Below are positions 20,291 to 23,472 of a stretch of DNA of 64,000 bases, piece by piece (position 1 is the stretch's first letter; every line of letters starts with the position of its first letter). The DNA lies in assembly GCF_006381105.1 (NCBI RefSeq), contig NZ_VDET01000002.1, positions 496,001-560,000 of the forward strand, in the 5' to 3' direction. The stretch comes from Flavicella sediminum (lineage in GTDB: Bacteria > Bacteroidota > Bacteroidia > Flavobacteriales > Flavobacteriaceae). The translations under genes and the position numbers were made by a program. Below the pieces are notes generated by a model. It did no database searches. It was not told where the DNA came from and saw only the letters and a list, made by a program, of their open reading frames with translations.

Positions 20291-21451
20291 ATGAGTGATA
20301 ATAAAGTTCAAATTTTTGATACAACCTTAAGAGACGGAGAACAAGTCCCTGGTTGTAAACTAAATACAGGTCAAAAATTAATCATTGCTGAAAGGCTTGA
20401 TCTTTTAGGTGTTGATATTATTGAAGCTGGTTTTCCGGTTTCAAGCCCAGGAGATTTCAAATCTGTTGAAGAAATTTCTAAATTGGTAAAAAACGCAACC
20501 GTTTGTGGATTGACAAGAGCTCATGAAAATGATATTAAGGTTGCTGCCGAGGCATTAAAATTCGCTAAAAGACCAAGAATCCATACAGGTATTGGAACTT
20601 CTGATTCTCATATTAAATTTAAATTCAATTCTACACCAGAAAAAATTATTGAACGTGCGCAAGCAGCTGTTAAATATGCCAAAGGTTTTGTAGAAGATAT
20701 TGAATTTTACGCAGAAGATGCTGGAAGAACTGACAATGAGTACTTAGCACGTGTGTGTGAAGCCGTTATCAAATCTGGAGCTACTGTTTTAAACATTCCT
20801 GATACAACGGGCTATTGTTTACCTGAAGAATACGGAGCAAAAATTAAATACCTTAAAGAAAATGTAAAAGGTATTGAAAATGTAATTTTATCTTGTCACT
20901 GTCACAATGATTTAGGTTTAGCAACTGCCAATGCCGTTTCTGGAGCTATTAATGGGGCTAGACAAATTGAATGTACAATTAACGGAATTGGAGAACGTGC
21001 TGGAAATACTGCTTTGGAAGAAGTGGTGATGATTTTCAAACAACATCCTGATTTAAACTTGTACACGAACGTAAATAGCAAATTGTTATTTAGTACAAGT
21101 CAGTTGGTACAAGAACATATGGGTATGGTAGTTCAACCAAACAAAGCTGTCGTTGGAGACAATGCATTTGCACATAGTTCTGGAATACACCAAGATGGAG
21201 TTATTAAAAACAGAGAAACTTATGAGATTATGGATCCAGCAGACGTTGGAGTTACAGAATCTTCAATTGTTTTAACAGCAAGAAGTGGACGTGCGGCATT
21301 AGCTTATAGATTAAAAAATAACGGATACGAATTGACCAAAATAGAATTGGACGCAACATACCCTGAGTTTTTAAAATTTGCAGACACGAAAAAAGAAATT
21401 AACGACGAAGACTTACACATCTTAATGGAGAGATGTAATATCAAAGCTTAA
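20291..21451 (+). CDS. leuA: 2-isopropylmalate synthase, short form without regulatory domain
   Basis: Acetyl-CoA-dependent Claisen enzyme for the first step of leucine synthesis. The metal and substrate motif [12 protein letters not shown] is at the N terminus, with [23 protein letters not shown] and [10 protein letters not shown] following. At 386 residues it stops after the TIM barrel and a short linker, and lacks the roughly 110-residue C-terminal leucine-binding domain of classical LeuA. Feedback inhibition through that domain is therefore not expected. The short relatives homocitrate and citramalate synthase cannot be fully excluded. leuB, leuC and leuD are not adjacent. A terminator follows. 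Confidence 0.85.
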
Positions 21452-21472
21452 TTTTTCGCAATAAAATCACAC

Positions 21473-21503
21473 AAAGCCTCATTATTTTAATGAGGCTTTT
21501 TTT
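21473..21503 (+). terminator. Terminator after leuA
   Basis: The arms AAAGCCTCATTA and TAATGAGGCTTT close a small loop and are followed by a T run, 22 nt after the leuA stop. It separates leuA from the cysteine unit. Confidence 0.88.
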
Positions 21504-21528
21504 GTAAGAAAAACCAAAGCCTTGCGAC

Positions 21529-21558
21529 TTGAATAGTAGTTTTACTTTAGTACCTTTG
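21529..21558 (+). promoter_or_regulatory. Promoter of the cysteine leader and cysE-cysM
   Basis: TTG (21529-21531), 19 nt, then TACCTTTG plus C (21551-21558): a complete match to the Bacteroidota consensus. The expected start near 21564 is about 18 nt before the leader ATG at 21582. Confidence 0.8.
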
Positions 21559-21581
21559 CTTCAATATTTTAGACGAATTTT

Positions 21582-21659
21582 ATGTTTTCTAACAAACAAC
21601 AAAATACTTTTCACGCCTTATTGCAATATTCTTTATTGCGTTGTTGTTGCTGTTTCTAA
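21582..21659 (+). CDS. Polycysteine leader peptide upstream of cysE-cysM
   Basis: An open frame of 25 codons from ATG to TAA whose C terminus reads LLRCCCCF: four consecutive Cys codons (TGT TGT TGC TGT), then Phe and stop. It lies between a perfect promoter and the genes for the two steps of cysteine synthesis, 52 nt before cysE. Cys is normally rare, so a run of four just before the stop points to a sensor of cysteinyl-tRNA. Polycysteine leaders of cysteine-responsive operons are known in mycobacteria; this one would be an independent case. I see no clear terminator between it and cysE, so control may be translational. Confidence 0.78.
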   Translation: MFSNKQQNTFHALLQYSLLRCCCCF

Positions 21660-21711
21660 AAATAACTTACATTTAAACTTTTCATTTTAACAATACAATC
21701 TCAGCGTAATC

Positions 21712-22503
21712 ATGACAAAAGATCTGATTATTAAAAATATTGGTTTATTAAAAAACCACACTTCCATTAATTACGGAATTAAGACAAAAACAGAAAAATT
21801 TACAGAAAAATTATTCTACACACTTTTTGATACCAATGCACCTTTGAGTGAAAGTATTGATGAGTTAGAAATATTATTCAAGGAAATTTCTGTAATTGCT
21901 TGTAAAAAACCAGAGGAGTTATGCACTTCAATCTGGGATAAATTTTTAGCAAAATTACCAGAAGTCTTGTTAAAGCTTAATCAAGATGCCTCGTTTATAT
22001 TAGATAACGACCCTGCTTCTAATGATATTGAAGAAGTTTATTTGGCTTACCCAGGCTTTTACGCTATTGCCATTTATCGCTTAAGTCATGAATTATACGA
22101 ATTAGACATGCTCTTATTTTCTCGTTTAATGAGTGAATACGCGCATAGAATTACGGGTACGGATATTCATGCCGGTGCAAAAATAGATTCTCCTTTTTTT
22201 ATCGATCACGCTACTGGAATTGTGATTGGAGAAACGGCAGAAATTGCCAAGTATGTAAAAATATACCAAGGAGTTACTTTAGGTGCCCTTAGTGTAAGTA
22301 AAGACATGAAAGATGCCAAACGTCATCCTACTGTAGAAGAACATGTTTGCATTTATGCCAACGCTACTATTTTAGGAGGAGAAACCGTGATTGGAAAAAA
22401 TAGTATTGTAGGAGGAAACGCGTGGGTAACTCGTACTATTCCCGAAGAGTCGGTCGTATTAAACACAACCACAACCGATGTAAAAATTAAAGAAAAGAAG
22501 TAA
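21712..22503 (+). CDS. cysE: Serine O-acetyltransferase
   Basis: Transfers acetyl from acetyl-CoA to serine, giving the substrate of cysteine synthase. An N-terminal helical domain (about 1-140) is followed by a left-handed beta-helix of hexapeptide repeats, seen in HAGAKIDSPFFIDHATG and GVTLGALS, with the catalytic His in IDHATG. The length of 263 residues matches the EpsC/CysE type of Bacteroidota. It lies downstream of the polycysteine leader and 81 nt before cysM, in one apparent operon. Confidence 0.94.
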   Translation: MTKDLIIKNIGLLKNHTSINYGIKTKTEKFTEKLFYTLFDTNAPLSESIDELEILFKEISVIACKKPEELCTSIWDKFLAKLPEVLLKLNQDASFILDNDPASNDIEEVYLAYPGFYAIAIYRLSHELYELDMLLFSRLMSEYAHRITGTDIHAGAKIDSPFFIDHATGIVIGETAEIAKYVKIYQGVTLGALSVSKDMKDAKRHPTVEEHVCIYANATILGGETVIGKNSIVGGNAWVTRTIPEESVVLNTTTTDVKIKEKK

Positions 22504-22584: not shown

Positions 22585-23472
22585 ATGAAACCTAAAAAAT
22601 TAGTTGACTTAATAGGAAATACGCCTCTAGTTATCAGTCAAAATTTAGTAGAAAATAAAAACGTGCAACTTCTATTAAAATTAGAAGGAAACAACCCTGG
22701 AGGAAGTGTAAAAGACAGAGCAGCCTATAATATGATTGCTACAGCACTTGAAAAAGGCGTTATCAAAAAAGGAGATGTTTTAATTGAAGCTACGAGTGGA
22801 AACACAGGAATTGCTCTGGCTATGATTGCACAAATACTAGGAATAGAAATTGAACTTGTATTACCTGAAAATTCTACCAAAGAAAGAACGCAAACCATGC
22901 GTGCTTATGGTGCTAAAGTTACTTTGACACCTGCTGCTGAAGGAATTATTGGCTCAAGAGATTATGCAGACAAAAAAGTAGCTGAAGGTGGTTATATTAT
23001 GCTAAATCAATTTGCTAATAAAGACAATTGGAAAGCACATTACAAAACTACAGGACCTGAAATTTGGAGAGACACCAAAGGAAGTGTGACGCATTTTGTA
23101 TCGGCTATGGGAACTACAGGCACCATTATGGGAACCTCTACCTATTTAAAAGAACAAAACCCAGACATTCAAATTATTGGGGCAGAACCGAGTGAAGGTT
23201 CTAAAATTCCTGGAATTAGAAAATGGCCAAAAGAATACTTGCCTAAAATATTTAACGCCAAAAAAGTAGACCGAATTATTGAGGTTAGCGAAGCAGAAGC
23301 AAGAGCTATGACAAAACGTTTGGCGCAAGAAGAAGGAATTTTTGCTGGAATGAGCAGTGGAGGATCTGTGGCCACCGCTATTAAAGTGGCCAACGAATTA
23401 GAATCTGGCGTAGTCGTTGCCATTATTTGCGACCGAGGAGATCGTTATTTATCTTCTGATTTATTTGATTAA
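22585..23472 (+). CDS. cysM: Cysteine synthase, CysM type
   Basis: PLP enzyme that makes cysteine from O-acetylserine and sulfide or thiosulfate. The PLP lysine is in GSVKDRAAYNM near residue 42, the phosphate loop is in TSGNTGIALA, and the C-terminal GMSSGGSVA is present. At 295 residues and with this N terminus it resembles CysM (cysteine synthase B) more than the longer CysK. It forms a unit with cysE and the leader peptide and is followed by a strong terminator. Confidence 0.93.
   Translation: MKPKKLVDLIGNTPLVISQNLVENKNVQLLLKLEGNNPGGSVKDRAAYNMIATALEKGVIKKGDVLIEATSGNTGIALAMIAQILGIEIELVLPENSTKERTQTMRAYGAKVTLTPAAEGIIGSRDYADKKVAEGGYIMLNQFANKDNWKAHYKTTGPEIWRDTKGSVTHFVSAMGTTGTIMGTSTYLKEQNPDIQIIGAEPSEGSKIPGIRKWPKEYLPKIFNAKKVDRIIEVSEAEARAMTKRLAQEEGIFAGMSSGGSVATAIKVANELESGVVVAIICDRGDRYLSSDLFD

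Follow-up and report, generated by a model that had tools for sequence, protein, structure and literature searches.

A conserved polycysteine leader frame before cysE-cysM of Flavicella sediminum, likely a form of amino-acid leader control with a Rho-dependent read-out

Introduction

Polycysteine leaderless short ORFs were reportedly described in mycobacteria by Canestrari et al. in 2020. The mycobacterial system is treated in PMC13236596 and PMC9031893 and, in the parts of these papers that concern it, short frames 5' of cysteine genes contain runs of Cys codons and go together with cysteine-dependent attenuation. The locus of Flavicella sediminum described here has such a run in the same place, although it differs from that account in phylum, in the genes concerned and in promoter type. 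Moreover, the mycobacterial frames, as portrayed in those parts, have a leaderless start and act by translation attenuation, whereas the present one likely has a 5' leader and likely a Rho read-out. A second related case is uORFC-8-2, a motif before cysS in Rhodobacterales with tandem Cys codons, for which the section of PMC8632094 devoted to it proposes ribosome-mediated attenuation. The window (the whole stretch of 64,000 nucleotides that was analysed) shares with this motif the tandem Cys codons in a short frame, but uORFC-8-2, as outlined in that section, has a terminator and a cysteinyl-tRNA synthetase gene, and stands nearest to eight leaders of a terminator-bearing class (class T, below), not to that of the window.

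In E. coli, the rut site of the tna operon adjoins the stop codon of the TnaC leader. According to the relevant passages of PMC9973294, Rho cannot terminate transcription in this operon while a ribosome is held at the TnaC end, and it is likewise proposed for the window that a ribosome held at the end of the short frame would block downstream Rho-dependent termination. Nevertheless, TnaC responds to tryptophan, stalling through its peptide, while the stalling proposed for the window would come from missing charged Cys-tRNA; unlike TnaC as characterized in those passages, the leaders of the window's genus have no conserved peptide beyond the Cys end. The toiL-topAI pair of E. coli, in the account given in part of PMC12121999, has a short upstream frame overlapped by a Rho loading site, comparable with the short frame and candidate Rho site of the window, but toiL-topAI, on that account, senses antibiotics and acts via pairing to the next Shine-Dalgarno (SD) site, a pairing not found at the window.

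Nearer to the present organism, leader peptide attenuation has been proposed before amino-acid operons of Flavobacterium psychrophilum, also a flavobacterium, in PMC9723704, where the main text, in the portion on these operons, names no cysteine leader (the supplement may list one); leaders of Bacteroides thetaiotaomicron contain short frames, in the corresponding part of PMC7366714, and further related literature is represented by sections of PMC2965389. In the literature searched, leader-peptide gene control is little described in Bacteroidota and a Cys leader not at all; searches of the open-licence articles of PubMed Central, supplements aside, brought up no paper on a leader before cysteine genes of Bacteroidota. 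The leader of the window is likely a new form of amino-acid leader control and part of a wider class, with a likely Rho-dependent read-out. Such a class would explain many unannotated short frames and would give a cysteine-responsive expression switch for the phylum.

The leader locus

An earlier note, made from the letters of the window, had pointed to a 25-codon frame ending in Arg-Cys-Cys-Cys-Cys-Phe-stop between a promoter and the cysteine synthesis genes, with a GCAATA/TATTGC hairpin just 5' of the Cys codons and a 52-nt spacer free of any obvious terminator behind them. Each of these elements was found again in the present analysis, and their positions are collected in Table 1.

Table 1. 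Features of the leader locus, with positions counted from the first letter of the window
Feature	Position	Strand	Basis or remark
leuA	ends 21451		upstream of leader; NCBIfam
Terminator-like hairpin	21473..21499	+	after leuA; boundary, outside leader
Bacteroidota-type promoter, TTG-N19-TACCTTTG	21529..21558	+	sequence; fit to consensus
Leader peptide frame, 25 codons, MFSNKQQNTFHALLQYSLLRCCCCF-stop	21582..21659	+	same length and Cys positions in 6/6 genus genomes
Hairpin H1, directly 5' of Cys codons	21623..21639	+	more stable than dinucleotide shuffles
Cys codons TGT TGT TGC TGT, then one Phe codon and stop	21642..21653	+	
Spacer and candidate Rho loading site, 52 nt, unstructured and G-poor (10 C, 2 G)	21660..21711	+	
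Weak hairpin H2, about -4 kcal/mol, around cysE start codon	21706..21731	+	folding
cysE, serine O-acetyltransferase	21712..22503	+	NCBIfam
cysM, cysteine synthase	22585..23472	+	NCBIfam

The leader frame starts with ATG, stops with TAA and encodes 25 aa with the C-terminus RCCCCF. The promoter consensus of Bacteroidota is TTG ... TAnnTTTG, which is fitted by the TTG at 21529-21531, followed after 19 nt by TACCTTTG at 21551-21558; TTG-N17-21-TAnnTTTG also precedes the leader frame in L004, L005 and L006, and TAnnTTTG was recognized by eye in L003 and L007. In the window this element ends 23 nt 5' of the leader ATG, which speaks against a leaderless start. As regards the downstream genes, the cysE product scores 159 bits with the NCBIfam cysE model, below the cut-off of 210.65, and 153.4 with the NCBIfam model of serine O-acetyltransferase EpsC, above the cut-off of 150, while the cysM product exceeds the cut-off of NCBIfam cysteine synthase CysM. 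No Rfam family reached its gathering score within the window, and a terminator search over 21300-22000 returned the hairpin after leuA as the sole terminator-like site, none lying in the spacer.

The poly-Cys leader frame before cysE-cysM is real and conserved. Since the motif (TGY)4-TTY-TRA has a single match in the whole genome, namely the leader site, and the genome's other four (TGY)4-TRA sites are all in frames that lack an ATG, the Cys run of the leader stands above chance.

Conservation within the genus

In each of the six genus genomes analysed, cysE is preceded by a leader of exactly 25 codons. The earlier note had made its proposal hang on conservation of the Cys run in orthologous upstream regions, and this run was kept in 6/6: codons 21 (TGT), 23 (TGC) and 24 (TGT) are identical throughout, giving the pattern CxCC, with TGT, CGT, TAC or CAT at codon 22 and Phe or Leu as the last residue. 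Pairwise base identity is 27-60% over codons 2-17 and 71-92% over codons 18-25. On base composition alone, the chance of codons 2-17 staying open is 0.31-0.60 per sequence, and 0.003 over the six sequences when these are treated as independent. The surroundings are also maintained, with a cysM-like motif, NTPL, downstream in 6/6 loci and a leuA-like frame upstream in five of them; in the sixth, L004, another frame takes that place and the leader is still found with cysE.

Two side observations concern the same loci. The synonymous choice at the Cys codons (21642-21653 in the window) is fixed in the genus, codon 23 being always TGC and codons 21 and 24 always TGT, so that the bases themselves may matter. 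In L003 (genome G002) the spacer measures 80 nt, the excess of about 30 nt including a self-contained hairpin; without this extra stretch the unfolded length would be near 54 nt.

Cysteine leaders beyond the genus

The frame had at first been taken for an isolated case in Bacteroidota, a view that was overturned by searches for Cys-rich short frames before cysE of this phylum. Of 237 cysE upstream regions (a set including repeats and some non-Bacteroidota records), 32 contained a frame of 4-50 codons that begins with ATG and has three Cys inside a stretch of five residues, the corresponding counts being 2 for the opposite strand and 2.2 for dinucleotide shuffles; among the 32 matches, L035 repeats L006 and L114 repeats L002. 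The scan covered regions of at least 400 bases, of which the last 450 bases were searched, and omitted three of 80 named loci with fewer than 400 bases upstream (L050, L063 and L107). Members of the window's family have such leaders, as do records labelled Runella and Chitinophagaceae and members of f31 and f49, two families outside the window's class. In f31, under a looser rule that also allowed start codons other than ATG, at least two Cys fall in the last six residues of the frame in 32 of 35 cysE loci (shuffles 2.55, opposite strand 7), and in f49 the rule of three Cys in six residues gave 4 of 28 (opposite strand 1). In other families the length and sequence of the leader vary, and it is mainly the stop-adjacent Cys that recur. 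The close Flavobacterium relatives of this cysE are mostly without a leader.

The pattern (TGY)4-TRA was also tried by itself as a phylum scan. It matched in 332 of 395 genomes, with a lower backwards control (not summed), and no inference was drawn from it because codon or base composition could explain the excess over the control.

Two builds of the leader

An automatic terminator rule divided 49 leaders into eight with an intrinsic terminator before cysE (class T) and 41 without (class S), including that of the window; in none of the six genus loci did the rule find a terminator. In class T the last Cys lies at most one codon from the stop in one leader out of eight, spacers run from 78 to 153 nt, and outside the hairpin C is about as frequent as G (70:60), with C over G in 4/8. 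In class S the last Cys is at most one codon from the stop in 40/41, the median spacer is 56 nt, and the spacers have a C:G of 445:198, with C over G in 41/41. Because f31 alone contributes 29 of the 41 class S leaders, these are not 41 independent events; furthermore, the f31 rule, which required two Cys among the six final residues, is biased towards terminal Cys. Among leaders of the 237-region scan, where this rule was not applied, by our own tally, the last Cys was at most one codon from the stop in 17 of 18 terminator-less leaders vs one of seven with a terminator. Within f31 the spacer length has a standard deviation of 7.4 nt (25 loci) vs 14.8 nt for the leader length. Three class T leaders belong to the window's family, L027, L190 and L192, the last two being near-identical and counted as two.

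The set of 49 leaders took 29 of the 35 f31 loci, L282, L284 and L287 having no leader, L300 and L304 no ATG that could be found, and L157 a 193-nt gap. Also left out were L093 (start overlaps terminator), L094, L104, L181 and L186 (5-residue frames), and L146, L149, L151, L152 and L155 entered as L286, L294, L326, L327 and L302.

A single Bacteroidota-wide Cys sensor with two off-switches is tentatively put forward, one switch being a terminator, with the Cys further inside the frame, and the other a Rho site, with the Cys at the stop and a spacer of near-fixed length; the window would represent the Rho version. The same sensor joined to a terminator or to a C-over-G spacer would be a clean natural comparison of the competition between Rho and ribosome.

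Spacer composition

All 31 leader spacers of the genus and f31 (6 genus leaders and 25 f31 leaders with ATG start) have C over G, compared with 47 of 116 ordinary 54-nt upstream regions (14/41 from three genus genomes and 33/75 from ten f31 genomes; Fisher p 1.3e-10). The C-over-G stretch extends from about -75 to +30 nt around the leader stop and is interrupted only by the Cys codons. Among 179 leaderless cysE upstream regions, which, unlike the intergenic 54-nt control, include non-intergenic DNA, C exceeded G in 84. Over their last 54 nt, the 31 leader spacers fold at -2.2 kcal/mol on average vs -3.9 and -5.9 in the two control sets. According to part of PMC12121999, rut sites are marked by a high C:G ratio and by being unstructured, and C-over-G, unstructured RNA of the sort expected of a Rho-controlled leader was found at the leader stop. 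Compared with shuffles of themselves, the f31 spacers show no deficit of structure, their low structure being due to their base composition. Nor do YC pairs, another mark of rut sites, exceed what base composition predicts (mean z 0.00, 31 spacers), their density per 100 nt being 8.23 vs 5.65 in the control for the genus and 8.85 vs 8.07 for f31. In f31 it is G that is depleted, 0.067 vs 0.163, with C not raised, 0.156 vs 0.160. G-poor RNA could simply have been selected to stay unfolded. A ribosome parked at the leader end would mask only about 10 nt of the spacer.

In the Flavobacterium lineage the bias is not strictly tied to the leader, because all 17 loci examined with a close cysE and no leader (some near-identical, the list leaving out L033) share it, having more C than G over the 54 nt 5' of cysE. 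In these loci the bias may have outlived the leader or may serve something else. Two of the leaderless loci, L038 and L126, resemble each other and have the appearance of a decayed leader, and the other ones have GTG or TTG starts of cysE. A spacer block CTAAAAA..CCTTACTTTTA, common to the leaderless Flavobacterium loci, was considered as a second promoter; the last base of CCTTACTTTTA is A where the consensus has G, and the upstream TTG is often missing, as judged by eye. It was also observed that leaderless L034, L036, L037, L039, L113, L115-L124 and L038/L126 mostly keep a block like CAAAAAACGCCTTACTTTTAACG before cysE, and that a similar block lies 3' of the leader stop in the window's genus.

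Proposed mechanism

A Cys run that is kept before cysE while the rest of the peptide drifts is, with high confidence, best explained by sensing of charged Cys-tRNA. Two features of amino-acid leader attenuators in general are found here, in that codons for the pathway's own amino acid lie in a short frame 5' of a biosynthetic gene and are conserved in 6/6 genomes. As to the read-out, we hold with middling confidence that the leader is a Cys-sensing attenuator read out through Rho. A Rho read-out is favoured because there is no terminator, no switch supported by folding and a rut-like spacer, because TnaC provides a precedent, and because Rho is encoded, its gene being present in the window's genome.

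When charged Cys-tRNA is low, the ribosome would stall on the leader Cys codons, and the stalled ribosome, or another queued at the last codons, would mask part of the Rho site, allowing cysE-cysM to be made. With enough cysteine, the ribosome would finish and leave; less certainly, Rho might then load on the exposed leader and might stop RNA polymerase in or near cysE. The direction of control would be such that cysE-cysM are on when cysteine is low. The weak hairpin at the cysE start may hold translation low, thus letting Rho act. The earlier note, finding no terminator in the spacer, had considered that the read-out may be translational or affect mRNA stability; the premise was borne out, but no consistent RNA switch was seen at the cysE start, and the C-over-G spacer points to Rho instead.

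Alternative explanations

Translational attenuation, in which the cysE start would be hidden by RNA structure and opened by a ribosome stalled at the Cys codons, without Rho, is the alternative that survives best and is nonetheless rather unlikely. It would accord with the term translation attenuation, used for the mycobacterial Cys leaders in the corresponding part of PMC13236596, and with H2, since about -4 kcal/mol are found around the cysE AUG in all six loci of the genus, in leader-bearing L125 and in the decayed-looking L038/L126, whereas the same stretch has -2.6 kcal/mol or weaker in 13 of 14 leaderless relatives with GTG or TTG starts; covariation of H2 is untestable because its sequence is nearly identical in all six genus loci. 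However, thermodynamic folding of the six sequences with a ribosome on the Cys codons gave no consistent change in accessibility of the cysE start (most were unchanged, L004 went up and L005 down), and the Cys codons pair neither with the early frame nor with the cysE start beyond chance level, so that both pairings were rejected (combined Z -0.2 and +0.42, respectively). Their pairing with the spacer, at a combined Z of -1.47, was not counted as support. Many Bacteroidota start translation without Shine-Dalgarno pairing. In f31, spacers hiding the Shine-Dalgarno site occurred at single loci only (e.g. L278). Across 30 f31 spacers, structure did not exceed that of shuffles (mean z +0.13), and with their first 12 nt masked the SD region was on average hardly more accessible (0.49 vs 0.47 unmasked), which also tells against translational attenuation.

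Improbable is an effect on mRNA stability, by which the leader-stalled ribosome would protect the transcript or prevent H1 from forming as a cleavage site. What can be said for it is that H1 (arms at 21623-21628 and 21634-21639) is so placed that it would be melted by a ribosome waiting at the Cys codons, and that it recurs in the genus, to which its examination was confined, with three of its six pairs changed on both sides in some genus sequence. The H1 region is more stable than dinucleotide shuffles, with a combined Z of -3.95 (single p 0.012 to 0.386, below 0.05 in three of six sequences), and 80.6% of its pairing cells are paired vs 64.5% in shuffles (2/500 reach 80.6%) and 39-53% with the partner slid; its covariation score was reached by 1/500 shuffles and its count of both-side pairs by 42/500, with a slightly unfavourable RNAalifold covariation term of +0.19. 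Nevertheless, the present analysis gives no pointer to a cleavage site, and H1 would leave the C-over-G spacer and its steady length unexplained.

A classic attenuator, with an intrinsic terminator separating the leader from cysE, is highly improbable here, for although eight relatives have that build, three of them in the window's family, no terminator-like site occurs in the spacer or, by the automatic rule, in any of the six genus loci, and five of the six genus spacers fold at 0 kcal/mol. Equally remote is a small Cys-rich protein with a role of its own (e.g. metal or thiol binding), its place before cysE being secondary, since the CxCC pattern kept in 6/6 is set against an otherwise unconserved peptide (codons 2-17, as given above) and against leaders of differing length and sequence elsewhere.

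Variant leaders

Several individual leaders depart from the layout of the window. L190 and L192 have the leader MMLFVCNMCCMMWKNPQSISIA (with one residue different in L192) and a strong terminator before cysE, the classic layout of a transcription attenuator. L027 carries two consecutive Cys-rich short frames within 360 bases 5' of cysE, with a terminator-like hairpin and T run between both frames and a second one before cysE. In L104, a record labelled Candidatus Dormiibacterota, a frame ending LICTCACS stops 57 nt 5' of the assumed cysE start and is possibly a Cys leader outside Bacteroidota. Finally, a second leader type was observed in f31 (L157, L159, L281, L288, L290, L293, L300, L301, L303 and L304) with two Cys codons only; these leaders end alike, e.g. 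in GYFSTCIC or GYLFTCIC, and in RYFSTCMC in the case of L303, a conserved peptide end which hints at peptide-specific ribosome arrest rather than codon counting.
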